DNA of 64,000 nt from Limibacter armeniacum. GTDB lineage: Bacteria > Bacteroidota > Bacteroidia > Cytophagales > Flammeovirgaceae. The notes beneath the pieces were generated by a model. It ran no database searches and was not told the DNA's origin. It worked only from the letters and a program-made list of their open reading frames with translations. Below, in pieces: positions 1 through 56,397 of this stretch (its first letter is position 1; the number at the start of each line of letters is the position of its first letter). The position numbers and the translations under genes were made by a program. The stretch spans positions 248,001 through 312,000 of the forward strand of contig NZ_JBAJNO010000008.1 of the NCBI RefSeq assembly GCF_036880985.1. Direction: 5' to 3'.

Positions 1-3000
1 AAGAGTATATTAGAAAGGTTAGCAAATGGTGAGACCGTTGAGCGAGACCTTGAAGTTACACTGCCAACAGGTAATTTCTGGATGCATGTAACTTATGCTC
101 CAATGCATAACGAGCAGAATCAGGTCAATGAGGTTTTGGGTCTTTATGCCAATATTACTCATCAGAAAGAACAGGAGCAGGAGCTTAAAGAGAAGAATGA
201 AGAACTGACGGTTTCTGAAGAGGAGCTACGCCAGCAGCAGGAAGAGATCCTGTCTCAGCGTGAGGTGGTAGAGCAATACAATGCCGAGCTGAAGAGAAAA
301 GAAGAAGAGCTGAGTGGTATTATAGGTTCTGTAGAACAGAAAAATTACGTAATCCGCTATGATCTGGATGGATTGATCACTTATGTGAGTGAGCCATTCA
401 TGAGGTTATTTGAACCATCAGGTGATGTTCAGCCACAGGAAGAAATGGAGAGTGTCAACCTGAAAGATGTTGAGCCTGCATTTATCAACAATCCACAGGC
501 ATTCGAGGAGCATATCTCAAAGCTGAAGCGCGGAGAGGTTGTTGTAAGGGAAAGTGAGATTGCTTTAGAGGATGGCCGTGTTATTTATATACAAGCTACT
601 GAAACGCCAATTCTTGATAAGGATGGTAATATAAATGCAGTATTCAGTATATCAGCGGACATGACAGCTCAGAAGCTGCAACACTTGGAGCTTCAGCATA
701 AGAATGAAGAGTTGTTGACTTCAGAAGAAGAGCTTCGTCAACAACAGGAAGAGATCCTGTCTCAGCGTGAGGTAGTAGAGCAATACAATGCCGAGCTGAA
801 GAGAAAAGAAGAAGAGCTGAGTGGTATTATAGGTTCTGTAGAGCAGAAAAACTATGTGATTTACTACGATATTGATGGAACCATCACTTATGTCAGCGAA
901 CCTTTTGTAAAGTTATTAGATCCATCTGGTACCCAGCAACAGGAGGGAGCAGAAAGTATAAACTTGAGGGATGTAGTACCTAACTTTGCGAATAATCCGG
1001 AAGTATTTGATGAGCATATCTCAAAGCTGAAGAAAGGTGAAGTAGTAGTAAGGGAAACAATATTACCAGCATCAGATGGTCGTACTGTTTATATACAAGC
1101 TACAGAAACACCAATCTTTGATAAGGATGGCAATGTGAAGTCGGTATTCAGTATTTCAGCAGATATTACTGAACAAAAAGAACAGCAGCTTGTACTTCAG
1201 TACAAGAATGAAGAGTTGCTGACTTCAGAAGAAGAGCTTCGCCAACAACAGGAAGAGATCCTGTCTCAACGTGAGGTAGTAGAGCAGTACAATATTGAGC
1301 TGAAGAGAAAAGAAGAAGAGCTGAGTGGTATTATAGGTTCTATCGAGCAACAAAACTACGTATCCCGTTACGATCTGGATGGTTGGATCACTTATGTGAG
1401 TGAACCATTCATGAAGTTGCTCGATCCATCAGGCACACAGCAGCAGCAGCAGGATATGGCGAAGCTCAACCTGAAAGAGGTCGAGCCAGCATTTGTCGAT
1501 AATCCACAGGCATATGAGGAGCATATAGCAAAGTTGAAGCGTGGGGAAGTAATCATCAGGGATAGTGTAATTCCAACAGAAGATGGTCGTACTATCTACA
1601 TGCAAATGACGGAAACCCCAATCCTTGATAAGGATGGTAATGTGAAGTCAGTATTTTGTATTTCGGCAGATATTACTGAGCAAAAAGAGCAGCAGATTGT
1701 ACTTCAGCACAAGAATGAGGAGTTACTGACTTCAGAAGAGGAACTTCGCCAGCAGCAGGAAGAGATCATTGCACAGCGTGAAGCAGCTGAGCAATACACA
1801 GTCATGCTCAAGCAAAAAGAGTCAGAGCTGCAAGGAGTCATCAAGTCGATTGAAGGACAGAACTACTTAGTACGCTTTACTCCTGAAGGAATCATCACCT
1901 ATATCAGTGATCCATTTATCAAGTTTGCAGGCTTGCCTGAAGATGCACTCATTGGACATAGCATTGTAGAGTTCGTTGCTAAAAGCGGTGAAAGTTCTGC
2001 TGAAGTATACCAGCAGATCTTGGATAGACTTGACCGTGGTGAAATGGTGGAGCGTGATATTGAGATCAAGTTACCTTCAGGAAAATTCTGGATGCATGTA
2101 ACTTACTCTCCACTGAAAACACAAGCTGGGGACATCTATGAAATAATTGGTTTGTATGCCAATATCTCAGAGCAAAAGCATCAACAGCTAGAACTTCAAG
2201 AGAAAAATGAAGAACTGATTGTTTCAGAGGAAGAGCTTCGTCAGCAGCAGGAAGAGATTATTGCACAGCGTGAAGTTGTGGAGCAATATAACAGGGAACT
2301 GAAGCAGAAAGAGGAAGACTTGCAAGGTATTCTGGGGTCAATTGAACAACAGAACTTTGTAGTACAGTTTGATCTGGACGGTGTAGTTACCTATATCAGT
2401 GAGCCATTCCTTAAGCTACTGAACTTGACAGAAGATGAGGTACTTGGTGAAAATGTAAGGGATTTTGAAACTGAATTCCGTGATGATCCGGTTGCCTTTG
2501 AAGCTTACATGAACAAGCTTCGCAATGGTGAGATAGTGGCAAGAGAGAGCGTAGTTGAAACGCCTTCAGGAGAGACGATCTATACATACTCTACTGATAC
2601 GCCTATCCGTGATGCTTCAGGAAATGTGAAGTCGATTTTCAATATATCGGCTGACATTACAAAGCAGAAGGAGCAGCAGAAGGAGCTTCAGGAGAAAAAT
2701 GAGCAGTTGCTGGTATCAGAAGAAGAGCTTCGCCAGCAGCAGGAAGAGATTATCGCACAACGTGAAGTTGTGGAGCAATACAATGTTGAGCTCAGAAAGA
2801 AAGAAGAAGAGCTGAGTGCAATCATTGGTTCGATCGAGGAGAACAACTATGTGGTTCGCTACGATGCTGATGGAATGATCAACTATATCAGTACACCATA
2901 TGTGGAGCTGGTTGATCCAGAAAGACAGTTCTTCAGTGAAAAAGGTGGCATGAACGTGAAGGAAGCTGACATGGAATTTGTCAACAATCCTGAGCGCTTT

Positions 3001-5415
3001 GAGCAGTACATGAGCAAACTGAAGCGGGGAGAAGTTATCGAAAGATACATAGAGCTTGAGTTAGGTGAGGAGCGTACTATCCACATGCACGTGACTGAGA
3101 CACCTATTTTTGATAAAGATCGAAACCTGATCTCCGTATTCAGTATATCAACTGATATTTCAGAACATAAGAGACAGCAGCAGGAGCTTCAGAAAAAGAA
3201 CGAAACACAGGCTGTTCTGGAGGAAGAACTTCGTCAGAATCTGGAAGAATTGCATGCGACACAAGAAGCTACCGAGGTAGAAAAAGAGCGTATCAAAGCA
3301 ATTCTGGATGGTTGTGTGGATGCCGTTGTCAATATCAATGAAATCGGAATCATAGACTATGTCAACCCAGCAGCTATCAAGCTTTGGGGATATGAGGCAG
3401 GTGAAGTACTTGGTCAGAATGTGAAAATACTGATGGGAGGTGAGCACAGAGCCAACCATGATCAGTACTTGTCTAACTACCGTGAAACGGGCATAAGAAA
3501 GGGTATTGGTATTAGCAGAGAATTGGAGATTCTAACAAAAGATGGTCGTAAAGTGCCAATTTTGTTGACCCTGAGTGAGTCCCAATCTGCAAAGGGTAGA
3601 ACCTTTACTGCTTTTGTGAAAGACATCACGTTACAAAAAGAGCAGGAAGAAGAAATCAGACAGAAGGGTGCTGAACTTTCAGCAGTCCTTAATACAATCG
3701 AAAGCAGAAACTACCTGATTCGCATCAACCCTCAAGGTATTATTACCTATGTAAGTGAACCTTACTTGCAGTTGATGGGAATGGCTAAGGAAGATGTTGT
3801 TGGGCAAAAGACCAGCGCATTGACCTCTAAAAAGGAGGATGCTACAGATGACTTCTACAAGCAGATCCATACTCGCTTGATGAATGGAGAAAGAGTGGAG
3901 CGTGATATTGAGCTTACTTTCCCAACAGGTAAATACTGGATGCACATTACCTATTCACCAATGTTTGATGCCAATGGTGAAATAGAAGAAATTTTGAGCC
4001 TTTGTGCGAACATTACTCCTCAGAAACTACAGGAGCAGGAGCTTCAGGAGAAGAATGAAGAATTGCTAGTATCTGAAGAGGAGCTTCGTCAGCAGCAGGA
4101 AGAGGTGATAGCACAGCGTGAGGTTGTAGAGGAATATAACATAGAACTCAGAAAGAAAGAAGCCGAGTTGCAAGGCGTTCTGGATTCTATCGAGCAAATG
4201 AACTACCTGCTACGATTTAAAGCAGATGGGGAAATCACTTATGTAAGTAAGCCATTCCTGAAACTGGCAGGCATTACAGAAGAAATGCTGGTAGGAAACA
4301 GTGTCGTTGACTTTGTTGGTAATAGTGATGATGTGATAGGGAAATTCACCGACATGCTGCGAGAAATGAAGGAAGGTACAATGGTAGAGCGTGACCTTAA
4401 GATTGACCTACCTTCAGGAACTTACTGGATGCATGTGAACTATACGCCACTGTTTAACGAAGAAGGCAACATTACAGAGATTATAGGTCTGTATGCCAAT
4501 ATGACTGAGCAGAAAATGCAGGAAATGGAGCTTCAGGAGAAGAATGAAGAACTGCTAGTATCTGAAGAGGAGCTTCGTCAGCAACAGGAAGAAATGGTTG
4601 CTCAGAAGGAGGCATTGGCACAGGTGAACAGTACACTGGAAGCAAAAGAGTGGAAAATTCAGCAGAGTATTTTGGCTGCCGAATCGATACAGCAAGCTGT
4701 ATTGCCACAGAAGGAAAGACTCGAAAACCTACTGAAATCATACTTTGTACTCTACAGACCGAAAGATATTGTATCAGGAGACTTCTTTTGGTTAAGACAG
4801 GTAGAAGGCAAAACAGTACTGGCAGTAGCAGACTGTACAGGTCACGGTGTACCAGGTGCATTTATGACCATGATTGGTAATAGTTTGCTGGATAAGATTA
4901 TTAGCGGAGAGAAAAATCTGGTACCATCTGAAGCATTGGAGAGACTTGACAAAGAAATCAAGTATGTGCTTCGTCAGAAAGAAACTGGTAACAATGACGG
5001 TATGGACATCGCTATTGCAGTGATGGAATCAATGCAAGGAGGCGGAATGAGGATTAGCTTCGGTGGAGCAAGACTGGCTATGTATTACCAGCACAATGGT
5101 GGTACGCTTGAGAAAGTGGATGCAACCAGACGCTCAATCGGTGGACATATTGCCAAATCCCCTCGTGAGTTTACAGATCAGGTAGTGGAATTGCCAGCAG
5201 GAAGTAGGTTCTATTTCTCAACGGATGGTTTCACCGACCAGAATGATAAAGAGCGTAAGAGCTTTGGACGTAAGTCATTTATGGGAATGCTGGAAGAAAC
5301 CTACAAGTTCCCAATCAGGTCACAGCGTTCAGAGATTGAAAACCGCTTTATCAAGTACATGGATGGCACTGAGCAGCGAGATGATGTATTGCTGGTAGGT
5401 GTAGAAGTAAACTGA
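1..5415 (+). CDS. Giant PAS-array sensor with C-terminal SpoIIE/PP2C phosphatase (5' end outside window)
   Basis: The frame is open from base 1, so the true start lies upstream; the first internal ATG is at 82 but the residues before it already belong to a PAS domain (NFWMHVTYAP). About 1804 residues are visible: the tail of one PAS, nine full PAS domains and a C-terminal SpoIIE-type phosphatase (from about base 4650). The PAS domains are joined by near-identical coiled-coil linkers (core SEEELRQQQEE). Eight of the nine are an NY-type (GSIEQxNYxxRYDxDG). One, near 3290-3630, is FixL-like (ILDGCVDAVVNI) with His1153 and Arg1173 in the FixL haem-ligand spacing. Phosphatase acidic motifs are present: SGDFF, ADCTGHG, GMDIA and QRDDVLL. 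No membrane segment is visible in this part. It is followed closely by SiaB- and SiaC-like genes, so it is probably the SiaA-equivalent phosphatase that dephosphorylates the SiaC-like protein (family knowledge plus inference). Confidence 0.93.
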   Translation, partial: KSILERLANGETVERDLEVTLPTGNFWMHVTYAPMHNEQNQVNEVLGLYANITHQKEQEQELKEKNEELTVSEEELRQQQEEILSQREVVEQYNAELKRKEEELSGIIGSVEQKNYVIRYDLDGLITYVSEPFMRLFEPSGDVQPQEEMESVNLKDVEPAFINNPQAFEEHISKLKRGEVVVRESEIALEDGRVIYIQATETPILDKDGNINAVFSISADMTAQKLQHLELQHKNEELLTSEEELRQQQEEILSQREVVEQYNAELKRKEEELSGIIGSVEQKNYVIYYDIDGTITYVSEPFVKLLDPSGTQQQEGAESINLRDVVPNFANNPEVFDEHISKLKKGEVVVRETILPASDGRTVYIQATETPIFDKDGNVKSVFSISADITEQKEQQLVLQYKNEELLTSEEELRQQQEEILSQREVVEQYNIELKRKEEELSGIIGSIEQQNYVSRYDLDGWITYVSEPFMKLLDPSGTQQQQQDMAKLNLKEVEPAFVDNPQAYEEHIAKLKRGEVIIRDSVIPTEDGRTIYMQMTETPILDKDGNVKSVFCISADITEQKEQQIVLQHKNEELLTSEEELRQQQEEIIAQREAAEQYTVMLKQKESELQGVIKSIEGQNYLVRFTPEGIITYISDPFIKFAGLPEDALIGHSIVEFVAKSGESSAEVYQQILDRLDRGEMVERDIEIKLPSGKFWMHVTYSPLKTQAGDIYEIIGLYANISEQKHQQLELQEKNEELIVSEEELRQQQEEIIAQREVVEQYNRELKQKEEDLQGILGSIEQQNFVVQFDLDGVVTYISEPFLKLLNLTEDEVLGENVRDFETEFRDDPVAFEAYMNKLRNGEIVARESVVETPSGETIYTYSTDTPIRDASGNVKSIFNISADITKQKEQQKELQEKNEQLLVSEEELRQQQEEIIAQREVVEQYNVELRKKEEELSAIIGSIEENNYVVRYDADGMINYISTPYVELVDPERQFFSEKGGMNVKEADMEFVNNPERFEQYMSKLKRGEVIERYIELELGEERTIHMHVTETPIFDKDRNLISVFSISTDISEHKRQQQELQKKNETQAVLEEELRQNLEELHATQEATEVEKERIKAILDGCVDAVVNINEIGIIDYVNPAAIKLWGYEAGEVLGQNVKILMGGEHRANHDQYLSNYRETGIRKGIGISRELEILTKDGRKVPILLTLSESQSAKGRTFTAFVKDITLQKEQEEEIRQKGAELSAVLNTIESRNYLIRINPQGIITYVSEPYLQLMGMAKEDVVGQKTSALTSKKEDATDDFYKQIHTRLMNGERVERDIELTFPTGKYWMHITYSPMFDANGEIEEILSLCANITPQKLQEQELQEKNEELLVSEEELRQQQEEVIAQREVVEEYNIELRKKEAELQGVLDSIEQMNYLLRFKADGEITYVSKPFLKLAGITEEMLVGNSVVDFVGNSDDVIGKFTDMLREMKEGTMVERDLKIDLPSGTYWMHVNYTPLFNEEGNITEIIGLYANMTEQKMQEMELQEKNEELLVSEEELRQQQEEMVAQKEALAQVNSTLEAKEWKIQQSILAAESIQQAVLPQKERLENLLKSYFVLYRPKDIVSGDFFWLRQVEGKTVLAVADCTGHGVPGAFMTMIGNSLLDKIISGEKNLVPSEALERLDKEIKYVLRQKETGNNDGMDIAIAVMESMQGGGMRISFGGARLAMYYQHNGGTLEKVDATRRSIGGHIAKSPREFTDQVVELPAGSRFYFSTDGFTDQNDKERKSFGRKSFMGMLEETYKFPIRSQRSEIENRFIKYMDGTEQRDDVLLVGVEVN

Positions 5416-5448
5416 TTGCATTAACTGATTTTGAAAACAGATAATAAA

Positions 5449-5997
5449 ATGACTATAGATTTTAGTTTTCCATATGCGGCAGGCACTGCCTCTGACAATG
5501 TACTGATCTATTACAAAGGGTCTTTTGAAGAAGAAGTGTTATCTACTGTTGGTGCTAGTTTGAGAAAGCATTTTGACGAAATGCCTAAGTTAGGACGCTC
5601 AGCTTTTGCATCATTTGTAGAGATGGCTCAAAATATTTCTCTTTATTCTGAAGAAAGGAATATTTTCTCGGCAGATAACAAAACCAACGGAATTGGTACG
5701 TTCTTAGCTGAAGATTTGGATGATAAGGTTAAAGTGACTGCTACGAATTTGGTGAATGAGAGTCAGCAGAAAGAAATACTGGCTAAGGTGAAGAAAGTCA
5801 ATGAGATGGAACTCAAAGACTTGAAAATGTGGAGAAGAGAGATATTGCGTAAGCCACCAGAGAAAGAAGGTCATCAGGGTGGTGGAATTGGCTTATTGGA
5901 GATTGTACTGAAGTCGGGTTCTCCACTTGATGTTGAGATCTCTATAGTGAATCAGCAGTATGCGTTTCTTTCACTTTCAGTATACCTGAATAAGTAG
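5449..5997 (+). CDS. SiaB-type protein kinase (DUF6272-like), copy 1
   Basis: 182 aa. The family is a GHKL-like Ser/Thr kinase that phosphorylates its small partner SiaC in the Pseudomonas SiaABCD partner switch. Visible motifs are an N-box-like EMAQN (residues 58-62), which would bind Mg-ATP, and a glycine-rich GGGIGL lid motif (144-149) after the conserved HQ. I chose the ATG at 5449 over the upstream TTG at 5431 because copy 2 starts at the equivalent ATG and both have an A-rich leader ending in ATAAA. The gene starts 33 bp after the phosphatase stop, and this spacer is largely shared with copy 2, so it is co-transcribed. It is about 70-75% identical to copy 2 by eye. Role as SiaC kinase is inferred from family and operon order. 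Confidence 0.88.
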   Translation: MTIDFSFPYAAGTASDNVLIYYKGSFEEEVLSTVGASLRKHFDEMPKLGRSAFASFVEMAQNISLYSEERNIFSADNKTNGIGTFLAEDLDDKVKVTATNLVNESQQKEILAKVKKVNEMELKDLKMWRREILRKPPEKEGHQGGGIGLLEIVLKSGSPLDVEISIVNQQYAFLSLSVYLNK

Positions 5998-6054
5998 TAT
6001 TTCACTTAATATCATCGTAGAATCAATTATTACAACACTATTCAAACTAGCATT

Positions 6055-6435
6055 ATGGAGTGGCTTGAAAACTATAAAGAGGGCGTCTATAGACCAAATA
6101 TATACTTTGATAAAGACAAAGCGATTTGTACTATAAAAGGTGAATCTTTTATGGAAAATGCTGCCCAGTTTTATAAGGAGTTCTCCCTTTGGATTGAGCA
6201 GTCATGCATTAGTAGTATCCTGAAAGAACTTCGTTTTGAAATGGAGTACTTTAACTCAAGTTCTGCAAAAGGATTTAGAGTGATGATGCAAAAAATCCAT
6301 CAAATTCAGGATGGCGGATATGCACTGAAAGTGCTTTGGTGTTTCCCTGAAGAGGATGACAATGATATGGAGATGGAAGGTGAAGACCTGATCGAAGATA
6401 CAGAAGTGGAAATGGAACTGTTGCAGTTAGCTTAA
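6055..6435 (+). CDS. SiaC-type regulatory phosphoprotein (DUF1987-like), copy 1
   Basis: 126 aa, begins MEWLENYKEGVYRPN. Members resemble anti-sigma-factor antagonists and are phosphorylated by SiaB and dephosphorylated by a SpoIIE phosphatase. The signature EYFNSSSAKGF is visible; Ser68-Ser70 correspond to the phospho-acceptor region (Thr68 in Pseudomonas SiaC, from memory). An unusual feature is the very acidic C-terminal tail (EEDDNDMEMEGEDLIEDTE, about residues 99-117), also present in copy 2. The gene ends the first sensor-SiaB-SiaC operon, 57 bp after siaB, and is followed by a strong terminator. In Pseudomonas the free SiaC binds a diguanylate cyclase; no GGDEF protein is present in this window, so the downstream target here is unknown. 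Confidence 0.9.
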   Translation: MEWLENYKEGVYRPNIYFDKDKAICTIKGESFMENAAQFYKEFSLWIEQSCISSILKELRFEMEYFNSSSAKGFRVMMQKIHQIQDGGYALKVLWCFPEEDDNDMEMEGEDLIEDTEVEMELLQLA

Positions 6436-6456
6436 TTTCTCACCTCGAAAATTATA

Positions 6457-6492
6457 ATTCCCTTTAGACACTTAGCTAAAGGGAATTTTTTT
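6457..6492 (+). terminator. Rho-independent terminator of operon copy 1
   Basis: Perfect 11-bp stem (6457-6467 with 6476-6486), 8-nt loop, followed directly by a run of seven T. It lies 22 bp after the SiaC-like stop and ends the first partner-switch operon. Confidence 0.88.
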
Positions 6493-6936
6493 ATTGTACT
6501 CTATTTGATATGTGAAGAAAGAAGATAGTTTTTATTGACAATACCTGTGGTATTGGTGAAAAACTATCCATGATATACCTAATACTTTTACTACTCATAA
6601 ATACTGTTTAGCCTGATTGAGTATCTTTCTAACCTGATATAAGAAAAATTAACATTGATTATTTTTTGACTTTTAGATTGACCTTACAACATTGAAATAG
6701 CGCTTGGGAAATAGACTTTAACAAAGGGTAACTCATTGCTTGTCAATTCTAAAACTCCTCCAAATTCACTGTGTTATATATAGGTTAAATTAGAATTACC
6801 TTCTGAAAATTTGGTTACAGTCAGATATTGAAAGTAAAATATTATGGCGCCAAAATTTTATATAATCATTCTGTTATATAATATTACAAAACGCTATTGC
6901 TAAATAAACTAACAACAAGTCATTCACTTTTTAAGA
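6493..6936. other. Intergenic region between the two partner-switch operons
   Basis: 444 bp of A+T-rich DNA without a credible ORF. It holds the large hairpin at 6524-6568 and must contain the promoter of the second operon, but I see no TAnnTTTG box, so the promoter may be non-standard or use an alternative sigma factor. Confidence 0.6.
6524..6568. repeat. Long two-stage inverted repeat (45 nt)
   Basis: Outer perfect 10-bp stem (6524-6533 with 6559-6568), an asymmetric 5/3-nt internal loop, then an inner perfect 7-bp stem (6539-6545 with 6549-6555) closed by a TGT triloop. No T-run follows on the + strand, so it is not a simple terminator. It could be an operator, an mRNA structure or a palindromic repeat element. 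Confidence 0.7.
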
Positions 6937-9900
6937 ATGTATACACTAAAAAATCAAATCAGCGAACGACAAGACATACAATGGAATGTTTTTGTCAAAA
7001 CACTTCATGAACTAATTGCAAGGTTAGAAGATGGCAATCACGATTGGACATTTTTTGTCAACTATGTAAGTAAACGACTAGCAGAAGTTACAAAATCAAG
7101 CAGAGCCGGAATTTGGATGTACAGCGAATCGAAGCAAACATTTGAATCCATATCCTTATATGACTCTGACAGACAGATCCCTAATCAAGAGATACACCTT
7201 AGCAAACAAGATATTCCCGGCTTTTTTGAAGCATTTCAGAATGGAGAAATAATAAAGGCTGACCGTGCTTTAGAGCATGCTCTTACTACTCAACTAGCAG
7301 AAGTTTACTTGTTACCAACAGGTATTCAGTCTGTGTTATACATCCCGATTAGCTATGGTGGTAAGCTATATGGTATGGTTGGACTCGAATTCAAGCATAT
7401 TATTAGGATGTGGACAGCTGAGGAAGTTTTACTTCTAACCTCTACTGCTAACATTCTGTCTGTGAGCAGGAGGTTCCAGATTGAATATGGTAAATACTTT
7501 AACCTAGTTTCAGATCAAGACGATACACAAGCCACTCGTAAAAACCACAACGAAAGAGAAAGACTTGATCTCAAAGAAAAAGAACTGAAAGTCATCCTTG
7601 ATACCATCGAGCGTAATAACTATTTGGTTCGCTTTTCACCAGAAGGGGTAGTGACTTATGTAAGCGAAGCATTCCTGAATTTTGTAGGCCTAACAGAAGA
7701 TGTTGTACTAGGTAGTAACGCTGCGGAATTTATTGCACAAGGAGAGGAGACTTCACCAGAAGAAAATGAGGAAGTTAATCGCCGCCTAGGCAATGGAGAG
7801 ATCGTGGAGCAAGACTTGGAACTACATGTACCTCGAGGTAGCTTTTGGGTGCATGTAGCTTACTCAGCGATTATCTCTCCAGAAGGAGATATATTAGAGA
7901 TAATTGGTCTTTACACTGATATTACAGAACTGAAGACTCATGATATAGCGCTTCGCGAGAAAAATGAAGAGCTATTAACTTCAGAAGAGGAACTTCGTCA
8001 GCAGCAGGAAGAAATCTTGGCCCAGCAGGAAGCAACAGAAGCGGAGAAAGACCGAATCAAGGCAATCTTGGATGGTTGTGTGGATGCCGTAGTGACAATA
8101 GATGGTAGGGGAACGATAGAATATATCAACCCATCTGCGGTGAAGCTATGGGGATATAAGCCATCAGAAGTACTTGGTCAGAATGTGAAGATGCTGATGG
8201 GTAGCGAGCATAGTACCAACCATGACCAATACCTATCTAATTACCATCATACAGGAGAGAAAAAAGTAATTGGCACCGGAAGGGAAGTAGAGTTGGTAAC
8301 CAAGGATGGTCGCCGAGTTCCGATCCTGCTGACGTTAAGTGAGGTAGAGACATCATCAGGCAAAAGCTTTACCGCATTTGTCAAAGACATTACAGAGCAG
8401 AAACGTAAGGAGAAGGAGTTACGAGAGAAAAATGAGGAGCTGTTAACTTCAGAAGAGGAACTTCGTCAGCAGCAGGAAGAAATCTTGGCACAGCAAGAGG
8501 CGACAGAAGCGGAGAAAGACCGAATCAAGGCGATCTTGGATGGTTGTGTGGATGCCGTAGTGACAATAGATGGCAGAGGAACGATAGAATATATCAACCC
8601 ATCTGCGGTGAAGCTATGGGGATATGAGCCATCAGAAGTACTCGGTCAGAATGTGAAGATGCTGATGGGTAGCGAGCATAGTACCAACCATGACCAGTAC
8701 CTATCTAATTACCATCATACAGGAGAGAAAAAAGTAATTGGCACCGGAAGGGAAGTAGAGTTGGTAACCAAGGATGGTCGCCGAGTTCCGATCCTGCTGA
8801 CGTTAAGTGAGGTAGAGACATCATCTGGTAAAAGCTTTACCGCTTTCGTAAAGGATATTACGGTACTGAAGCAGAAAGAGGCGGAGGTATTAGCCCAGCA
8901 AGAGGCGACAGAAGCAGAGAAAGACCGAATCAAGGCAATTTTGGATGGTTGTGTGGATGCTGTTGTGACAATAGATGGCAGGGGAACGATAGAATATATC
9001 AACCCATCTGCGGTGAAGCTATGGGGATATGAGCCATCAGAGGTGTTAGGTCAGAATGTGAAGATGCTGATGGGTAGCGAGCATAGTACCAACCATGATC
9101 AGTACCTATCTAATTACCATCATACAGGAGAGAAAAAAGTAATTGGCACCGGAAGGGAAGTAGAGTTGGTAACCAAGGATGGTCGTCGAGTGCCAATTAT
9201 GCTAACACTAAGTGAGGTAGAGACATCATCTGGTAAAAGCTTTACCGCTTTCGTAAAGGATATTACGGTACTGAAGCAGAAAGAGAAGGAACTGCTCGAG
9301 AAAAATGAAGAGTTGTTAACTTCAGAAGAGGAGCTTCGTCAGCAGCAGGAAGAAATCTTGGCACAGCAAGAGGCGACAGAAGCGGAGAAAGACCGTATCA
9401 AGGCAATCTTGGATGGATGTGTAGATGCCGTAGTAACAATTGACGGTAGGGGAACCATCGAATATATCAACCCATCTGCGGTGAAGCTATGGGGATATGA
9501 GCCATCAGAGGTGTTAGGTCAGAATGTGAAGATGCTGATGGGTAGCGAGCATAGTACCAACCATGATCAGTACCTATCTAATTACCATCATACAGGAGAG
9601 AAAAAAGTAATTGGCACCGGAAGGGAAGTAGAGTTGGTAACCAAGGATGGTCGTCGAGTGCCAATTATGCTAACACTAAGTGAGGTAGAGACATCATCTG
9701 GTAAAAGCTTTACCGCTTTCGTAAAGGATATTACGGTACTGAAGCAGAAAGAGAAGGAACTGCTCGAGAAAAATGAAGAGTTGTTAACTTCAGAAGAGGA
9801 GCTTCGTCAGCAGCAGGAAGAAATCTTGGCACAGCAAGAGGCGACAGAAGCGGAGAAAGACCGTATCAAGGCAATCTTGGATGGTTGTGTGGATGCCGTA

Positions 9901-11112
9901 GTGACAATTGACGGTAGGGGAACGATAGAATATATCAACCCATCTGCGGTGAAGCTATGGGGGTATAAACCATCAGAAGTGCTAGGTCAGAATGTGAAGA
10001 TGCTGATGGGTAGCGAACACAAAGCGAATCATGACCAGTATCTATCTAATTACCACCAAACAGGGGAGAAGAAGGTATTAGGTACCGGAAGAGAAGTTGA
10101 GTTGGTGACTAAAGATGGCCGACACGTACCAATCTTGCTGACGCTAAGTGAAGTTGTAACGGCAAATGGCAAAAGCTTTACGGCATTTGTGAAAGATATT
10201 ACGGAGCTGAAGCTAAAAGAGACAGAGCTTTATGAGATGAATGAGGAGCTGTTAACTTCAGAAGAGGAACTTCGTCAACAAAACGAAGAAATGATAGCTC
10301 AAAAAGAAGCACTGGCTGAGGTAAACAGTACTTTAGAAGCGAAGGAATGGAAGATTCAGCAAAGTATTTTGGCTGCGGAATCTATTCAGCAGGCAGTATT
10401 GCCTCAGAAGGATAGACTGGACAATTTACTGAACTCTTACTTTGTACTTTATAGACCAAAAGACATTGTTTCAGGAGATTTCTATTGGCTTCGAAAAGTG
10501 GAGAACAAGATCGTACTGGCAGTGGCAGACTGTACAGGACATGGTGTTCCTGGTGCATTTATGACCATGATTGGCAATAGCTTGCTGGATAAGATTATAG
10601 GTACTGAAAAGACGCTTTCACCTGCAGCAGCACTTGAATCCCTTGACCGTGAAATCAAGCATGTATTGCGTCAGGAAGAAACGGGCAATACAGACGGAAT
10701 GGATATCGCCTTGGCTGTTATGGAGCCGATAGAAGGCGGTGGCATGCGAATCACTTATGGCGGAGCGAGGAATAGTATATATTATCAGCAGCCAAATGAA
10801 TCAATTGAGAAGATTGATGGTACCAGACGTTCAATTGGTGGATTCATTTCTATCTCAAACAAAGCATTTACAGACCATGTGGTAGAGTTGGCAGCAGGTA
10901 GTAGATTCTATTTCACAACAGATGGATTTATCGACCAAAACGATGAGAACCGTAAAAGCTTTGGTAAAAAGAATTTTGCCGCTATGCTGGAGGATACAAG
11001 CCACTTACCGATCGAGATACAGCGTGAGACGGTTCTGCAGCATTTCCTCAATTACAAAGAGGGTACTGAGCAGCGAGATGATGTACTACTATTAGGGGTA
11101 GAAGTAAACTGA
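6937..11112 (+). CDS. GAF + multi-PAS (FixL-like repeats) sensor with C-terminal SpoIIE/PP2C phosphatase
   Basis: 1391 aa, soluble, no signal or membrane segment. Order: N-terminal GAF (about 20-185), one NY-type PAS (about 215-325), five nearly identical FixL-like PAS domains (about 370-1095), a coiled coil and a SpoIIE phosphatase (about 1130-1391; motifs SGDFYW, ADCTGHG, GMDIALA, QRDDVLL). Each FixL-like unit contains NHDQYLSNY followed by GTGRE; His429, 585, 720, 876 and 1032 each have an Arg exactly 20 residues later, the spacing of the haem-ligand His200 and distal Arg220 of Bradyrhizobium FixL. Haem or oxygen sensing is therefore plausible but unproven, since many non-haem PAS domains look similar. 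It heads the second operon and is the probable phosphatase for the SiaC-like protein at 11765. The start ATG at 6937 gives a sensible N-terminus before the GAF fold. Confidence 0.93.
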   Translation: MYTLKNQISERQDIQWNVFVKTLHELIARLEDGNHDWTFFVNYVSKRLAEVTKSSRAGIWMYSESKQTFESISLYDSDRQIPNQEIHLSKQDIPGFFEAFQNGEIIKADRALEHALTTQLAEVYLLPTGIQSVLYIPISYGGKLYGMVGLEFKHIIRMWTAEEVLLLTSTANILSVSRRFQIEYGKYFNLVSDQDDTQATRKNHNERERLDLKEKELKVILDTIERNNYLVRFSPEGVVTYVSEAFLNFVGLTEDVVLGSNAAEFIAQGEETSPEENEEVNRRLGNGEIVEQDLELHVPRGSFWVHVAYSAIISPEGDILEIIGLYTDITELKTHDIALREKNEELLTSEEELRQQQEEILAQQEATEAEKDRIKAILDGCVDAVVTIDGRGTIEYINPSAVKLWGYKPSEVLGQNVKMLMGSEHSTNHDQYLSNYHHTGEKKVIGTGREVELVTKDGRRVPILLTLSEVETSSGKSFTAFVKDITEQKRKEKELREKNEELLTSEEELRQQQEEILAQQEATEAEKDRIKAILDGCVDAVVTIDGRGTIEYINPSAVKLWGYEPSEVLGQNVKMLMGSEHSTNHDQYLSNYHHTGEKKVIGTGREVELVTKDGRRVPILLTLSEVETSSGKSFTAFVKDITVLKQKEAEVLAQQEATEAEKDRIKAILDGCVDAVVTIDGRGTIEYINPSAVKLWGYEPSEVLGQNVKMLMGSEHSTNHDQYLSNYHHTGEKKVIGTGREVELVTKDGRRVPIMLTLSEVETSSGKSFTAFVKDITVLKQKEKELLEKNEELLTSEEELRQQQEEILAQQEATEAEKDRIKAILDGCVDAVVTIDGRGTIEYINPSAVKLWGYEPSEVLGQNVKMLMGSEHSTNHDQYLSNYHHTGEKKVIGTGREVELVTKDGRRVPIMLTLSEVETSSGKSFTAFVKDITVLKQKEKELLEKNEELLTSEEELRQQQEEILAQQEATEAEKDRIKAILDGCVDAVVTIDGRGTIEYINPSAVKLWGYKPSEVLGQNVKMLMGSEHKANHDQYLSNYHQTGEKKVLGTGREVELVTKDGRHVPILLTLSEVVTANGKSFTAFVKDITELKLKETELYEMNEELLTSEEELRQQNEEMIAQKEALAEVNSTLEAKEWKIQQSILAAESIQQAVLPQKDRLDNLLNSYFVLYRPKDIVSGDFYWLRKVENKIVLAVADCTGHGVPGAFMTMIGNSLLDKIIGTEKTLSPAAALESLDREIKHVLRQEETGNTDGMDIALAVMEPIEGGGMRITYGGARNSIYYQQPNESIEKIDGTRRSIGGFISISNKAFTDHVVELAAGSRFYFTTDGFIDQNDENRKSFGKKNFAAMLEDTSHLPIEIQRETVLQHFLNYKEGTEQRDDVLLLGVEVN
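8050..10326 (+). repeat. Tandem 468-bp coding repeats (five FixL-like PAS units)
   Basis: The same codon string (GAC CGx ATC AAG) starts units at 8050, 8518, 8923, 9391 and 9859: spacings 468, 405, 468 and 468 bp. The short step lacks 63 bp (21 codons, three heptads) of the coiled-coil linker. Units 3 and 4 appear identical over about 380 bp (from about 9031 and 9499). The pattern indicates recent tandem amplification or gene conversion. Confidence 0.92.
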
Positions 11113-11147
11113 TTGCAATTCATTGATTTTGAAAAAAGAACAATAAA

Positions 11148-11693
11148 ATGGCTATAAATTTTGGTTTTCCATTTACGGGAGTTACTTCTGACAGCATAAT
11201 GGTCTATTATAAAGGGTCTTTTGGAGAAGAAGTATTGACAAGTGTTGGTACAAGTCTCCGAAAACACTTTGAAGAAGCTCCAAAATTGGGACGTTCAGCA
11301 TTTGCGTCTTTTGTTGAAATGGCCCAGAACATATCATTGTATTCGGCTGAGAGAAATATCTTTTCTGCCGACCAAAAGAGTAATGGTGTTGGATCTTTCT
11401 TGGCAGAAGACCTAGATGATCGAATTCGAGTGACAGCGACCAACCTTGTAAATGAAGAGCAACAGGCAGAAGTGTTGCGAAAGGTCAAAAAGGTGAACGA
11501 GATGGAGCTTAAAGACTTGAAGTTGTGGAGAAGGGAAATCCTGAAAAACCCTCCAGAAAAGGAAGGACATCAGGGTGGAGGTATCGGTTTGCTTGAAATA
11601 GCATTGAAATCAGGCTCACCGATTGAAGCCGAAATTTCATATGTGAATAATGAATTCGCATTCCTTTCACTTTCTGTGTACTTGAATAAGTAA
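11148..11693 (+). CDS. SiaB-type protein kinase (DUF6272-like), copy 2
   Basis: 181 aa, paralogue of the gene at 5449. It keeps the N-box-like EMAQN and the HQGGGIGLLE glycine lid, so it is probably an active SiaC kinase. The ATG follows an A-rich leader and lies 35 bp after the sensor stop; the first part of this spacer is nearly the same as in copy 1, evidence that the whole operon was duplicated. Differences are concentrated at the N-terminus and in the stretch after the DDR/DDK segment. Whether the two kinases discriminate between the two SiaC partners cannot be seen from sequence. Confidence 0.88.
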   Translation: MAINFGFPFTGVTSDSIMVYYKGSFGEEVLTSVGTSLRKHFEEAPKLGRSAFASFVEMAQNISLYSAERNIFSADQKSNGVGSFLAEDLDDRIRVTATNLVNEEQQAEVLRKVKKVNEMELKDLKLWRREILKNPPEKEGHQGGGIGLLEIALKSGSPIEAEISYVNNEFAFLSLSVYLNK

Positions 11694-11764
11694 TAGTGCC
11701 GATTTACACAAGTTAAGTGACATATAATCTAATACATAGCAAACAGGATCAAACGAACGTTTTT

Positions 11765-12145
11765 ATGGAATGGCTTGAAAACTATAAAGAAGGAGTCTAC
11801 AGACCTAACATATATTTTGATAAGGAAAATGGAATTTGTACTGTAAAAGGGGAGTCTTTTATGGAAAATGCAGCTCAGTTTTATAAGGAACTGTCCAATT
11901 GGATTGAGCAGTCATGCACTGAAAATATATTGCAAACCCTTCGTTTCGAAATGGAGTATTTCAATTCAAGTTCTGCAAAAGGCTTTAGGGTGATGATGCA
12001 GAAGATTCATCAGATTCAAATTGATGGATATGGCTTAAAAGTCCTTTGGTGCTTTCCGGAAGAGGATGACAACGATATGGAGATGGAAGGCGAAGATTTG
12101 ATTGAGGATACAGCAGTAGAAATGGAACTATTGCAAATGGCTTAA
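11765..12145 (+). CDS. SiaC-type regulatory phosphoprotein (DUF1987-like), copy 2
   Basis: 126 aa, same length as copy 1. An in-frame GTG at 11717 would add 16 residues, but the ATG at 11765 gives the MEWLENYKEG start shared with copy 1, so I prefer it. The EYFNSSSAKGF acceptor segment is unchanged, as is the acidic tail (EEDDNDMEMEGED). Divergence from copy 1 is mainly around residues 42-60. It ends the second operon and is followed by a strong terminator. Predicted to be phosphorylated by the SiaB-type kinase at 11148 and dephosphorylated by the sensor phosphatase at 6937; both assignments are inference from gene order. Confidence 0.9.
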   Translation: MEWLENYKEGVYRPNIYFDKENGICTVKGESFMENAAQFYKELSNWIEQSCTENILQTLRFEMEYFNSSSAKGFRVMMQKIHQIQIDGYGLKVLWCFPEEDDNDMEMEGEDLIEDTAVEMELLQMA

Positions 12146-12161: not shown

Positions 12162-12196
12162 CCCCTTCAGGTCAAGTTACCTGAAGGGGCTTTTTT
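12162..12196. terminator. Terminator at convergent gene ends
   Basis: Perfect 11-bp stem (12162-12172 with 12179-12189), 6-nt loop, then C plus six T on the + strand. It ends operon copy 2. The minus-strand neighbour's stop codon (12195-12197) starts inside the T-tract. Confidence 0.88.
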
Positions 12197-40171: not shown

Positions 40172-42340
40172 TTATATGCTAATGCCCAAGACCAATAGGT
40201 CATCGATCTGAATATTGTCACCTTTCCAGTGCTCGAAGGCATTAAGCAAGTGATGTTTTTGTTTTTCCATAGGCATTCTATGCATCGCAGCCATAAGCCC
40301 TTTCATTCTTTTTATAGAATACTTTTTGTCACTGTCACCTCCAAACTGATCCTGAAAACCATCCGAGAAAATATAGAATGTGGTTGGTGTATCAAGGTCT
40401 ATTGTGTGCAGGGTAAACTGTGACTGCTGCTTACCATGCATGCGCCCGATTGAAAGCCTGTCTCCTTTGATTTGGTGCAATTCATTGTACTGAATATAAA
40501 TCAATGGACATTTGGCTCCTGCATAATGTAACTTATTTTCTTTAAGGTCTATGACACAAACAGCAGCATCCAAACCGGCATGGTATGTTGCACTATGCAA
40601 AAACTGTTCATTGACACTTTGCTGCAACTGGTACAGGATTTTGTCAGGTGTGTAAGTATGGCGTTCCAATACAATATCATTCAGCATATTGGAGGCACTC
40701 ATACTCATCAAAGCACCAGAAAGTCCGTGTCCAGTACAGTCAACTGCCGCAATTATCAGCTTGTCTTCTGTCTTTCGGAACCAGTAAAAGTCTCCACTGA
40801 CAATGTTTCGTGGTTGCCACAGTACAAACGCGTCTTTTACCTCTTCACGGATAACGTCCTCTCTTACCAGCATTGATTGCTGAATATGACTAGCAGCATT
40901 GATGCCGGCCGTAATATTGTTGTTCTTGATTTCCATTTCCATCTTCTGCTCATTGAGCAGGGTATTGGTAATGTTCAACTCCTCGGCTTGTTGCTTCAGC
41001 TCCTCTGCCAGTGTAGTCATTCCTTCTGCTTGTTTCTGGTTCTCTAGCTTGAGTTTTTCCTCTTCCTTAAATGAGGATGCAAACTGATGTGCCAGAATAA
41101 AAGACTGGGACAGTATAAACCCAACCATACTTAACTCAAAGAAATAACTGATAGCCGGAATCACATGGTAATGCACCAGTAAAATATAGAAAGCGGCAGA
41201 AAACAGTAATATCATTCCAATGAAAGCATAGAGTGCATTTTGACTCTTTCTGACTATGGCATATATCAGTATAGAAATGATGTACAGGATACTGACTACA
41301 GAAATGATATTATGAGCAGTTGTAAAATGTGTATAGGTATTATTATCCGTAAAAGTGGTCACTATTACAAACAGTAACGTGATGGTGCCTAATACACGAA
41401 TGATAAATGGTGAAAACTTTGTAGGGAAAGCCTCACTGTAAAAGCAGACTGCAAAAAAGACTGCCAAATACATGGCGTTGTATTCCAGTGCAGAGGTCAG
41501 TTCAAAGGGTAAGTTCGGAAATACTCCCTTGATCAGGTAGAAGTTACTACCTATCACCCAATAACACTGAACCAAGCAGAACAGCGCAAAGTACAGTACG
41601 GATTTATTGTCTTTCCAGAATAAGAACATTCCCAAAAAGAAGAATCCCAACACCATTAGAGAGCCTGCAACAAAGATCTGTACAGCGATCACCTTGTTAC
41701 GTTGGCCATGCAAATCCTCTGATTTACCGAAGTAGATCTTATCAGAGCCTCCTCCTAGTATATGGTGGAAATTGGAAACATAAATGACGATATCAGAAAC
41801 TTCTCCTTCGAGATTTACTGAAGTGGTCAAAGGCTGATAAGACGGAATGGTCTGTTTTTTTGACTTGCCAGGTTTTCCGTTATGGCAAATTAGTTTGCCA
41901 TTGATGTATAAGGCATAGGAAGACAGAAATGAATCAATGGTGAGTCCCATTACGGGAAGGTCATCATTGTGTTTGACACGCAGGTGATAAGTGGCATACC
42001 CATGTCCACTCATTAGCTTACCATCGATAAGCAGTTTGTGCCATTTTTTGTCAATAGATGCATAAGTATCAGGTTCTGGTTTTAGATCAGTATCCTGAAA
42101 CTGTTCATGGGTTATAAACTCATTGGCATAGAATTCCCATTCACCATTCAGTGCAATGGGACCATCTTGGTGGAAATTCCATGAGGTTACATCAACCTCT
42201 CCTTTTTTAGCGAGGAGAGATGTCCTTTTGCTTGATGTACTCAAAGAAATCATTGCATAGACAAGAAAGCCAATCAGCAAAAAGAGTACTCCGCCAAAAA
42301 GGTAGCCACTGAGTTGTTTCTTACTAAGTGGATTTAACAT
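40172..42340 (-). CDS. 7TM-DISM-type receptor with cytoplasmic SpoIIE/PP2C phosphatase
   Basis: 722 aa. An N-terminal membrane anchor (about 13-33), an extracytoplasmic galactose-binding-like/7TMR-DISM sensor (about 50-215: NGEWEFYANEF, GYATYHLRV), seven predicted membrane helices (about 220-425), a coiled coil (about 435-490), then a SpoIIE phosphatase (about 495-722). Phosphatase motifs are SGDFYWF, AVDCTGHGLSGALMSM, HAGLDAAVCV and IQIDDLLVLG. The sensor part presumably binds a small extracellular ligand and controls phosphatase activity across the membrane. No SiaB/SiaC genes flank it, so its phosphoprotein target may be one of the SiaC-like proteins at 6055 or 11765, or another encoded elsewhere (inference). 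Confidence 0.9.
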   Translation of the reverse strand: MLNPLSKKQLSGYLFGGVLFLLIGFLVYAMISLSTSSKRTSLLAKKGEVDVTSWNFHQDGPIALNGEWEFYANEFITHEQFQDTDLKPEPDTYASIDKKWHKLLIDGKLMSGHGYATYHLRVKHNDDLPVMGLTIDSFLSSYALYINGKLICHNGKPGKSKKQTIPSYQPLTTSVNLEGEVSDIVIYVSNFHHILGGGSDKIYFGKSEDLHGQRNKVIAVQIFVAGSLMVLGFFFLGMFLFWKDNKSVLYFALFCLVQCYWVIGSNFYLIKGVFPNLPFELTSALEYNAMYLAVFFAVCFYSEAFPTKFSPFIIRVLGTITLLFVIVTTFTDNNTYTHFTTAHNIISVVSILYIISILIYAIVRKSQNALYAFIGMILLFSAAFYILLVHYHVIPAISYFFELSMVGFILSQSFILAHQFASSFKEEEKLKLENQKQAEGMTTLAEELKQQAEELNITNTLLNEQKMEMEIKNNNITAGINAASHIQQSMLVREDVIREEVKDAFVLWQPRNIVSGDFYWFRKTEDKLIIAAVDCTGHGLSGALMSMSASNMLNDIVLERHTYTPDKILYQLQQSVNEQFLHSATYHAGLDAAVCVIDLKENKLHYAGAKCPLIYIQYNELHQIKGDRLSIGRMHGKQQSQFTLHTIDLDTPTTFYIFSDGFQDQFGGDSDKKYSIKRMKGLMAAMHRMPMEKQKHHLLNAFEHWKGDNIQIDDLLVLGISI

Positions 42341-43476: not shown

Positions 43477-46400
43477 CTATAACGGGATATCTACTATGAC
43501 AGAAGTTCCAGATCCTATTTGAGAATCAATACTGTAGTCACCTTTTAGGTAGTCAACTCTGGACGCAAGATTTTCAAGTCCAATACCATGCCTTTGCACT
43601 GTAGGGTCAAAGCCTTTTCCATCATCCTCAACAATGATATTTAAGCTGTCTTCATGGCGAATCAACTGCATGTTTAATTGGGACGCTTGAGCGTGCTTGA
43701 TGACATTCTGAACTAACTCAAGACATATTCTGTAAACTGCAACCTCAATATTTTGTGAAAGACGCTCGTCCAAGCCATAGACACTGAAATCAATTTGTAG
43801 GGTAGAAGATGCTTCTACCTGCTGAAGAAAACTTCCCAGTGTCGCTACTAGCCCGAATTTAATGAGTGAGCTTGGTAACATATTATGTGAAATACGTCTG
43901 ACTTCCTGACATGCATTATCCAATAGGGCAAGTGCTTTCTCATACTCCTGTTGCTTTTCAGGAATCTTTTCCTCAAAGTTTTCCTGAAAATGCGTGAAGT
44001 GCAGTTTTACACTTCCCAATAAGGCGCCAAGGCTGTCATGTAAGTCTTCTGCAATACGCTTTCGTTCGCTTTCCTGTGTCTCGACAATGGTATTGATATG
44101 GGTGTTTTTTTGCTCTTCAATCAGTTTATGCAACCTTTCTTTTTCAATCATTTCCTGTTTCAGTTCCTTGTTCAAGGCAACCGATTGTTGGTGAATACGT
44201 GCTTTTTCAAGATTGATACCACCCTGTCTGGCAATTAGTCCTGTCCAGAATTGTCTACCATGCGTGAATATATCTGTAGCGTAGTTATTCTCCAGATAGA
44301 CCAGTCCCGTTAGTTCATCATGAATAATGATTGGAATACAAAGCAGGGACTGGATACCTTGCTGTAAGATATAGTCTCTTTCCCTGATGATATCATGATC
44401 GGAAGGATGAGAACTCATCAGCGTTTGCTGGCTTCGGATACAGTAACGGAGAACAGAGTGTGAAACCCGTTGAGTATCCTTGATAGGTGTAGGCTTTGAG
44501 ATTGCTTTCAGGTAATGGTCTGTAGATCGGGCTTCACCCACCAGCATAATATCTTCGCCTTTTCGGAAAAAAAGTAAACACCTAGATGCGGCAGCGGCAG
44601 TCAGTAAAAGTGAAAGCATTTTCTTGATCGTACTTTGTTCATCAAGTTCAGCCCCAACTTCCTGTTGTACATGTTCAATTTCCTCCATACGATGCTGAGG
44701 TGGCTCAGGCTGGTTTTTCAAGAGGTAGGCATACTTTTCCTGTAACTGAGTAACCTTTGCTTTGGCTCCCCAACTATTGAAGCAGCGAATACTTTTGGTA
44801 AGCTTTTGACGGACCTGTTCGATAGGGTACTTCTCCGTTAGCATAAAAGTACTCATCCGCAGGTTTGCAATAGCTTCATGCTGAATATAATTGTATTGAA
44901 AAGCTTCTTTGGCTGCGAGCTTGTAGCTATGCAAAGCTTTCGATTTCTCACCTGATATTCTGAAAAGTTCAGCAGAGAGTATATGGTATTTGTGGCTGAA
45001 GTTTTCTGGCGCGTTTTCACTCCATCTCCACAACATACTTTTGTAGAAGTACAACTTTTCGAGTGCTTCCTCCCTTTTCTCACTTTCAATATTGATATAG
45101 TTGATAGCGGTGGAAAGCCCCATCATAAAAATATTTTCGGCATATCGTGGAGAGCCACGGAGCAAGGCACTGTTGGTATGGGCCGCTTCAAATTCCAGCA
45201 TGGCTTGTTCATGCATATCAAAGAACAAGTAATAGAGTCCTCTGACATGGTAATAGAAAAACAGTTGCTCCTGAAATGTAAACCTTCCTCCTAATGGTTT
45301 GGGAGATACTTTTCTCAGGTTGAAAGAGGTACTTACTCCTGATAGCTTTCTGATCAGTTTACGTTCTGCTTCAATGATGTATGCATTCTTTTCCTGAAAT
45401 ACACTAGGAGATTCAGGGTTTGTATCCAACAGTTCAAAAAGTGGGTACCCAAACTGAAACTTGGTATCAAAGGCTAATTGCGTAAGCATATCTGCCCCAA
45501 AACCATCTCCTTGCTGCAAGCTTTTTTGAATACTGTTTTCGAGGTTTGGAATGGTTTTACGCAATGGCGCTTTCCAGCTTTGAACAAAGTAGGCATAGTG
45601 TCCCAAAATCTGACTGTATAGCGAACTGTCCTTTACCTGTTTTCCTAGCTTGAAACCAAGTTCGCCAAACGCCAAGGCAATGTCCATGCTTTGCTCTGTG
45701 CCAATCAGTGTCTTGCTGAGCGTTACGCATGCCATGGCGGTAATTCCTGTAGGACGTGTTCGGATGGCTAAGTTCAGGATAAACATTGCCTGCCATTTCA
45801 ACAGGTTGGAAGAGTAATGGTGAATGGCTGTAGTACCTGCATGAAGCAGGTTTAAGATGGCAGACTCTTCCGCATTATTTTCTCTATTGGAACATGCTGC
45901 AATAGCATCAACACCATTTTCATCTGTAAAGCGATTCAGTTGTAGTTCTTCAGTTTGAAGTTGGCTAACGATATCCTTTTCACTCAAAGGCAGGGATATA
46001 TCGAAATCACTTAAAGACTTCTGAAGAATCTCTATGGCATTACGGTAACGGCGTGTGTGAATGTTGATAGTAATCTTCTGTTGGTAAGCCCTTGCTCGAA
46101 GCAGTACATTGGTATTTTGCTGAAGAACCCTATCCAAGTGAATTTCAGCAAGGTCAAAGTTTCCATGTCGGTATTCACAGCGGGCTTTTTCGAGCTGAAT
46201 TTGGGCTTTTAGTTCACTATGTTCTTCAGGCTTGGTAGTCTCTTTCAGCAAGTCAGCAGCCGTATTGTAGTACTTGATTGCAATCTCAAGAGCCTGGTTT
46301 CGGCGGGAAGCATTTCCTGCTTTCAGGTTCAGTCGTGCTATGGCTACCGATTCATTTCGCTGCTTGACAACCGGTAAGGCTTCATTGTAATGATTTGTAA

Positions 46401-47661: not shown

Positions 47662-47841
47662 GCTTATGAAAGGCGTACCTTGGTTCTTTTATTTGATTCT
47701 GAATAAATACAAATTTACATTAGGAAAGGATAGTTTTAAAAACGAATAACTGATACCTGAGATGAATTCGGGTTTCAGGCATAAAAACCTTACTATCGGG
47801 CTTCACCTGTTTATAATATTTCAACCAATACAGAGATCATT

Positions 47842-48981: not shown

Positions 48982-49001
48982 GTAACAACAGAAAAAGAAC
49001 A

Positions 49002-49037
49002 AAGCCAGTAGCAATAATCCCTTATCGCTGCTGGCTT
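49002..49037. terminator. Hairpin downstream of the M50 gene
   Basis: 11-bp stem AAGCCAGTAGC/GCTGCTGGCTT with one G-U pair (49002-49012 with 49027-49037), followed by TATATATA rather than a T-run. A weak terminator for the M50 gene, or an mRNA end-stabilising hairpin. Confidence 0.55.
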
Positions 49038-49169
49038 ATATATAGGTATGTGATGGTATGAGTTTCATGCTGCTGATAATGTAAGTAATAGTATAGAAGG
49101 TTTGTTAGTTAGGTTGCTTCCCTCTGTAATACAGTTATGGAGAAGCATTTTGAAGCAGCTAGTTCGCAA

Positions 49170-49973: not shown

Positions 49974-50344
49974 AGCAAAAAATGTTTTTAGATGAAAATT
50001 ACCGATGAACCTAGCAATGATAAAAAAGCAATTTCCTTATAGAAGGAATTACTTACCAAAATCAATCAAAGTCAAGTAGTATTCTTGTTTAATTGCAAAA
50101 GCTGTAACATAAAATTAAGCTACATTTTCAGCTTAATGTAAATATTATAACATTATTCAGAATAGCGCAATAATTATTGCTATAATCTTTGTTCAGTCCA
50201 ATTTCTCCTTTCATTAAGAATATTCACTAACTTGCTAATATCTCAAAATTAGTTCTAAAAATAATATTCATTTTCCGTGCTAAATGATACGTTTTGTAAC
50301 CAATTACGGGTAATTGGTTGGGACACAATCTCGAAGTGTACCCA
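49974..50344. other. AT-rich gap without CRISPR repeats
   Basis: 371 bp between cas6 and asnB. No repeat-spacer pattern. It contains an 8-bp hairpin (50114-50121 with 50130-50137), a perfect 10-bp inverted repeat with a 2-nt centre (50298-50307 with 50310-50319), and the IS-end-like segment that continues into the end of asnB. Confidence 0.6.
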
Positions 50345-52683: not shown

Positions 52684-52688
52684 AGTTA

Positions 52689-52715: not shown

Positions 52716-52751
52716 CTTGTGATGGCTATTACCCTAATTTGGAGACTATTA

Positions 52752-56332: not shown

Positions 56333-56397
56333 ATAAAACTGAAAAGATAGCGATATAGTAAAGCCAAAATGAATGGCGATATGATTATCAAGTAGAA

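Follow-up and report, generated by a model that had tools for sequence, protein, structure and literature searches.

A SiaA-type phosphatase with five tandem FixL/DosP-class PAS domains, a predicted multi-haem sensor in Limibacter armeniacum

A 64,000-nucleotide stretch of the genome of Limibacter armeniacum (positions 248,001 to 312,000 of contig NZ_JBAJNO010000008.1, assembly GCF_036880985.1; hereafter the window) contains a gene on the forward strand, at 6937–11112, for a protein of 1391 residues in which a GAF domain, a PAS domain and five FixL-type PAS domains precede a SiaA-like SpoIIE phosphatase. On balance, we favour the view that this array protein is a SiaA-type phosphatase whose sensor consists of five FixL/DosP-class PAS domains, each with haem b, and that it drives a SiaC switch. 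The parts are of known kinds; their copy number and wiring are unusual, and the binding of haem is predicted.

Results

The GAF domain (residues 46–176; 7072–7464), the first PAS domain (PAS_4, residues 229–333; 7621–7935) and the SpoIIE/PP2C phosphatase domain (residues 1190–1390; 10504–11106) of the array protein were identified by Pfam, and the stretches ADCTGHG, DGMD, TDGF and RDDV are all found in the phosphatase domain. Five FixL-type units lie in between on the same strand: unit 1 with its linker at 8023–8490 (His429 codon at 8221, Arg449 codon at 8281), unit 2 at 8491–8895 (His585, 8689; Arg605, 8749), unit 3 at 8896–9363 (His720, 9094; Arg740, 9154), unit 4 at 9364–9831 (His876, 9562; Arg896, 9622) and unit 5 at 9832–10299 (His1032, 10030; Arg1052, 10090). 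Their starts (8023, 8491, 8896, 9364 and 9832) are 156, 135, 156 and 156 residues apart, the linker of unit 2 being 21 residues, or three heptads, short of the others. The PAS_4 domain is only about 31% identical to these units. A previous annotation made without database searches (the sequence-only reading) had proposed five His/Arg pairs with a separation of 20 residues (429/449, 585/605, 720/740, 876/896 and 1032/1052) and a SpoIIE phosphatase as their output; the pairs are exact and all within this reading frame, and the Pfam SpoIIE match is C-terminal to the PAS units. No membrane domain is among the Pfam matches, and no membrane predictor was applied; judged from its sequence, the phosphatase is apparently soluble.

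The assignment of the units to the FixL class, also part of the sequence-only reading, is borne out at the level of both sequence and fold. Solved structures were matched by the unit with E 5.3e-23 for FixL and 5.2e-16 for DosP; FixL and DosP fill the first 13 places among the 22 distinct solved sequences matched up to E 0.01, and the 14th is 10jx, described as the haem-binding PAS domain of FG214. An AlphaFold model of unit 1 (alignment A1, 36 sequences; mean predicted local distance difference test score, pLDDT, 82.3) retrieved FixL as the first Foldseek hit (E 1.3e-13). When Foldseek's own candidates were re-aligned with VIA-align (ranks referring to the best 50 entries), the haem-PAS entries FixL, DosP and FG214 occupied ranks 1–23 with Z 16.0–19.4, and the next-best PAS entry, which is not a haem-PAS, reached Z 14.4. 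The alignment to 1drm places model residues 10–128 on chain residues 152–270 (119 aligned) and is gap-free; residue 58 of the unit therefore falls on FixL 200 and residue 78 on FixL 220. By arithmetic on the alignment positions, His58 and Arg78 likewise fall on 194 and 214 of RmFixL (1d06) and on 77 and 97 of DosP (1vb6). We take these positions to be those of the haem ligand and the distal arginine of the three sensors; R220A and R97A appear in the titles of structure entries. Modelling against the FixL PAS domain had been suggested as a check that could place the His outside the pocket, and it places it on the haem-ligand position of three solved sensors, in a stretch modelled with low confidence. 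The units have the sequence similarity, the F-alpha His at the haem-ligand position and the distal Arg of the FixL/DosP class.

It had also been cautioned that Arg206 and His214 of FixL are replaced by Asn and Lys. The replacements are real, but their weight as an objection is small, because the haem sensor DosP has His at +6 and Arg at +14, where FixL has Arg206 and His214. Since DosP itself differs from FixL at these places, and position +6 ranks only 100th of 129 columns in conservation, we dropped the substitutions as a strong argument against haem.

Conservation was assessed in 72 distinct units from outside the genome (tblastn, E up to 1e-8, with query positions 40–105 covered as a minimum; rows outside this span and exact duplicates were dropped). 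Both His and Arg are present in 57, His alone in 7, Arg alone in 1 and neither in 7, so that the His is kept in 64 of the 72; among the 44 units of 40% identity or more, 42 have kept both. The sample leans to close relatives because the loci were chosen as best matches. After thinning at 70% identity, which left 44 units and 129 columns, the His ranked 10th in conservation. FixL and DosP fall in a single PAS cluster, with the His as the primary determinant of haem binding and present in more than 9700 (60%) of the members, according to the accessible part of PMC10468136.

The spacing of the units follows a simple rule. Counting successive units that both have the His and lie under 600 bases apart, the His-to-His distances in the array gene and its relatives are 121, 128, 135, 149, 156 or 163 residues, and 52 of 54 leave a remainder of 2 on division by 7 (2 mod 7). 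Four loci entered this count twice (L009, L014, L019 and L025, the same as L062, L064, L065 and L068); without the doubling 47 of 48 spacings conform, the exception being one gene from outside the array genome (L025/L068) with a spacing of 162. As 19 of the 54 spacings are 121 and 16 are 128, many of them common by descent, the telling number is that six of seven distinct lengths are 2 mod 7, a rule that was noticed after seeing the data. The linker-motif spacings of the gene upstream depart from it (remainders of 1, 0, 1, 3, 3, 6, 5 and 2; the PAS lengths there also vary), and the rule is therefore not a property of every PAS array. A model of two units (alignment A2, 22 sequences; mean pLDDT 83.5, predicted template modelling score 0.50) has an unbroken 50-residue helix, at 115–164, between the PAS domains. 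A heptad dependence of the PAS linker is described for the engineered kinase YF1, with similar signatures between consecutive sensor modules (PMC6798134, in part). The spacings suggest serial coiled-coil coupling, with transmission running serially through the units rather than from beads on a string.

The genes that follow on the same strand encode the partners of a SiaABC-like system, which the sequence-only reading had overlooked. A SiaB family protein kinase (DUF6272; 11148–11693) scores above the cut-off of the SiaB-family model NF038262 (126 against 85 bits) and matches chain A of the SiaB structure 6kko (E 2.9e-13). It is followed by a SiaC family phosphoprotein (11717–12145; PF09345, 88.3 bits against a cut-off of 24.5; SiaC structure, E 1.5e-4) and by a terminator-like hairpin (12162–12189; consensus match only). 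SiaA (6k4e, E 3.8e-34) is the sole solved relative of the phosphatase domain at E 0.01. A SiaA-type PP2C domain, an adjoining SiaB-family kinase and an adjoining SiaC-family phosphoprotein are thus all present; the equivalog models for SiaA, SiaB and SiaC stay below their cut-offs (NF038263, 200 of 700 bits; NF038264, 84 of 225; NF038265, 50 of 150), and we therefore call the system SiaABC-like and do not equate it with the Pseudomonas system. A second cassette lies directly upstream in tandem, the two spanning 1–6435 and 6937–12145, again on the forward strand. It comprises a paralogue with a PAS array and a SpoIIE domain (1–5415, running off the left edge of the window; its open frame in the genome is 2112 residues), a SiaB-like kinase (5431–5997; 77% identical to that at 11148–11693), a SiaC-like phosphoprotein (6055–6435; 87% identical to that at 11717–12145) and, between both cassettes, another terminator-like hairpin (6456–6487; consensus match only). 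A GTG start would give the downstream SiaC product 16 residues more than its paralogue (11717–11764), and translation more probably begins with the ATG at 11765.

The Thr68 peptide of SiaC, LLYLNTSSIK (PMC7647112, in part), aligns to MEYFNSSSAK of the third gene product, with Ser at the place of Thr68; from this alignment the predicted phosphosite is probably a serine. As to the output of the switch, no GGDEF match was obtained in the array genome at E 0.001, with a control positive in 8 of 14 genomes, and a SiaC that acts through a SiaD-like cyclase is therefore not expected there. Of 58 genomes searched, among them the array genome, 45 have SiaC and 2 have GGDEF, and comparison of both lists leaves 44 of the 45 SiaC genomes without detected GGDEF; the array genome (8 Mb) has seven SiaC matches. 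SiaC being common and GGDEF scarce, the output of SiaC in the array genome is probably not a diguanylate cyclase. The SpoIIE query gave 46 matches in the array genome, and a further SpoIIE protein, with a 7TMR-DISM membrane part, is encoded in the window at 40172–42340.

The five units are duplicates of one another. Their PAS cores share 84–97% identity as DNA and 91–100% as protein, those of units 3 and 4 being identical as protein and unit 5 the most diverged. Over all ten pairs, synonymous divergence (dS) is 0.17–0.96 and the ratio of non-synonymous to synonymous divergence (dN/dS) 0–0.06; silent sites have diverged and the protein is nearly fixed, as read from the gene sequence, which is the mark of units held by purifying selection and not decaying. 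The copies differ at 3.5–16% of bases, mostly at third codon positions, and an assembly artefact is therefore not favoured. Within units 1–4 (8023–9738) the half with His and Arg is nearly identical even at silent positions and the remainder has drifted: of the 64 codons in the stretch 32–95, which holds both residues, 6 are variable, compared with 35 of the other 61, and the longest invariant run is 27 codons (permutation p 0.00015). This part looks like a gene conversion patch. Five independent matches to the motif are ruled out, the copies being duplicates partly homogenised in DNA. A sixth FixL-type unit, likewise overlooked earlier, is located in the upstream paralogue (3259–3633, forward strand; His codon at 3457, Arg codon at 3517) and is about 70% identical to the array units.

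At E 1e-24 the unit was matched in 69 of 390 genomes of the order. Tandem FixL-type arrays of two to four units are found in proteins of the methyl-accepting chemotaxis protein (MCP) type from Glaciecola, Kordiimonadaceae, Oceanicaulis, Kordiimonas and Azospirillum (L038, L039, L041, L046 and L047), and L064 has two units and an MCP output. For L062 (two units) and L065 (five units, in another genus) Pfam gave no effector. Neither tandem arrays nor the number five are therefore unique. These eight loci are those for which Pfam determined the output; L040, L042–L045 and the proteins with the 128 spacing were not scanned. The L065 protein (4459–8980 of that locus) has a GAF domain and three other PAS domains besides its five FixL-type ones, and a BLUF blue-light protein is encoded 32 bases on. 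A 420-residue query (the last unit and the phosphatase) matched only the array genome itself among 395 genomes at E 1e-70, a cut-off too strict to establish absence. With the cut-off at E 1e-30, matches came from 73 of 97 genomes; among the matches listed, most rows cover the SpoIIE part only, five outside rows begin within the first 20 query residues and three more at 72–84. The loci of the first five were retrieved, and one of them, L111, has a FixL-type PAS match with the His and without the Arg before a SpoIIE-like end (not Pfam-scanned); L110 and L112 match the unit without a FixL-type His, and at E 1e-3 the unit is not matched in L109 or L113. Among the matches listed, the combination of array, SpoIIE and SiaB/SiaC occurs only in the array genome. 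As judged by title and abstract, none of the studies that we found deals with FixL-type PAS arrays placed on SpoIIE phosphatases, most subscription papers being beyond reach.

Elsewhere in the window, 43477–47661 encodes a protein of 1394 residues with AAA ATPase, GAF and histidine kinase parts, and 49170–49973 is a Cas6-like gene; in the region around the latter (47000–56500), no sequence of at least 24 bases recurs in direct orientation within 200 bases.

Discussion

The domain order, the FixL/DosP class, the phosphatase motifs, the SiaB and SiaC neighbours, the heptad spacing and the lack of a GGDEF match are based on sequences and models. From them we infer the haem, its ligand, the direction of control, a dimer, co-expression, and the phosphorylation and target of SiaC. 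In the mechanism that we propose, each unit most likely holds haem b on its F-alpha His, and the Arg 20 residues further on would be the distal residue in contact with the gas. Binding of the ligand (O2 most likely; NO, CO or redox being possible) would shift each PAS domain, and the strain would run through the unbroken inter-unit helices, in heptad register, to the SpoIIE domain. This domain may then change its dephosphorylation of the SiaC protein encoded nearby, at a serine that would be phosphorylated by the adjoining SiaB kinase. SiaC would in turn act on a target; since the genome gave no match to GGDEF, this target is probably something other than a diguanylate cyclase. In our judgement, the prediction that the units bind haem is a probable one, and haem should be available, because the genome has two ferrochelatase genes (C9:375659–376663 and C2:287896–288873).

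Several observations weigh against this mechanism. Being duplicates of one unit, the five copies go back to a single origin and amount to one observation in evolutionary terms, not five; their number lends no independent support. The unit was matched in none of 17 other genomes of the same family at E 1e-24 and is not a family trait. The model of unit 1 is weakest at residues 51–80, the block that holds His58 and Arg78 (pLDDT 50–65), with residues 63–65 below 50. Both residues are kept in only 13 of 22 outside units at 30–40% identity and in 2 of 6 under 30%, and the conservation of the Arg is no more than moderate (38th among 129 columns). Finally, the residue directly before the helix is Gly in the window units and Pro in 37 of 43 relatives, and about 40% of the FixL/DosP cluster is without the His in the accessible part of PMC10468136.

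The last two points would also fit units that have kept the fold but whose ligand, if there is one, is not haem, the His being conserved for a structural role. We consider this improbable: the fold ranks haem-PAS domains above other PAS domains, the His is tenth of 129 columns, and Asn and Lys at +6 and +14 are no bar, given the His and Arg of DosP. Somewhat less improbable, if still unlikely, is that only some of the units carry haem, the others being apo spacers or dimer clamps, with the input perhaps coming mainly from the GAF or the first PAS domain. Near-identical copies with homogenised DNA fit recent drift in copy number, and the array of five units in another genus (L065) has no effector by Pfam; on the other side, His and Arg are intact in all five units and in that of the paralogue, and dN/dS is low in all ten pairs. 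PAS sensing of the haem level has been described for FlrB (PMC13060918, in part), and the array could in principle respond to haem or iron and not to a gas; with all six units retaining the Arg that occupies the distal position in FixL and DosP, we regard this as very improbable.

One extension of the favoured mechanism, which we put forward tentatively and consider rather doubtful as a whole, is a sensor with five haems per chain, or ten per dimer, in strict heptad stacking, in which occupancy would add up along one helix to a graded or very steep oxygen response and the SiaC switch would operate without a cyclic di-GMP (c-di-GMP) output. Receptors built on serial haem-PAS arrays would in that case represent a general design, combined with SpoIIE, MCP and other outputs. 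If true, oxygen would become an input of a SiaABC-type partner switch, and haem-PAS domains would offer a natural copy-number series in which to ask whether several equal sensors in a chain broaden the range, steepen the response or simply increase the signal.

FixL of Bradyrhizobium and Rhizobium, a histidine kinase with one haem PAS domain, is 35–39% identical to the unit over the fold alignment and has the same fold, with His and Arg in the same places. It differs in having Arg206 and His214 where the array units have Asn and Lys, and in its output, SpoIIE taking the place of the histidine kinase in the array protein, which stays below the cut-off of the whole-protein FixL model NF041777 (532 bits over five stretches against 850). 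DosP of E. coli belongs to the same PAS class and shares an LWGY stretch and the His/Arg pair with the unit; at +18 its residue is Met and that of the unit Thr, and its output is a c-di-GMP phosphodiesterase, unlike the phosphatase of the array. Several haem PAS domains in one chain also occur in Aer2, with a dual PAS-haem protein in Vibrio cholerae and a tri-PAS-haem protein in V. vulnificus (titles cited in PMC13401364). Its output is chemotaxis whereas that of the array is SpoIIE, and the MCP signal domain is not among the Pfam matches of the array protein. The Aer2 PAS cluster is separate from that of FixL and DosP and has its His on another helix (PMC10468136, accessible part), and we infer that the Vibrio domains belong to it.

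The SiaABC system of Pseudomonas aeruginosa supplies the best-matching solved structure for each of the three products (SiaA, SiaB and SiaC), and the gene order is that of siaABCD. A HAMP domain and two membrane-spanning segments are described for SiaA (PMC7647112, in part), SiaC has Thr68 where the array cassette has Ser, and for a counterpart of SiaD there is no GGDEF match in the array genome. In the stressosome of V. vulnificus, haem-based O2 sensing is joined to a phosphorylation switch by a globin (PMC9237108, in part); the sensor there is a globin on RsbR, and here PAS on a phosphatase. The tandem FixL-type proteins at L038–L047, L062, L064 and L065 have two to five units with the same 2 mod 7 spacing, and the output is of the MCP type in six that were scanned (L038, L039, L041, L046, L047 and L064), against SpoIIE in the array. 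In conclusion, in a genome without a GGDEF match, the array exceeds in unit number the published receptors that we found, and its units, of the FixL/DosP kind, are placed on a SiaA-type phosphatase.

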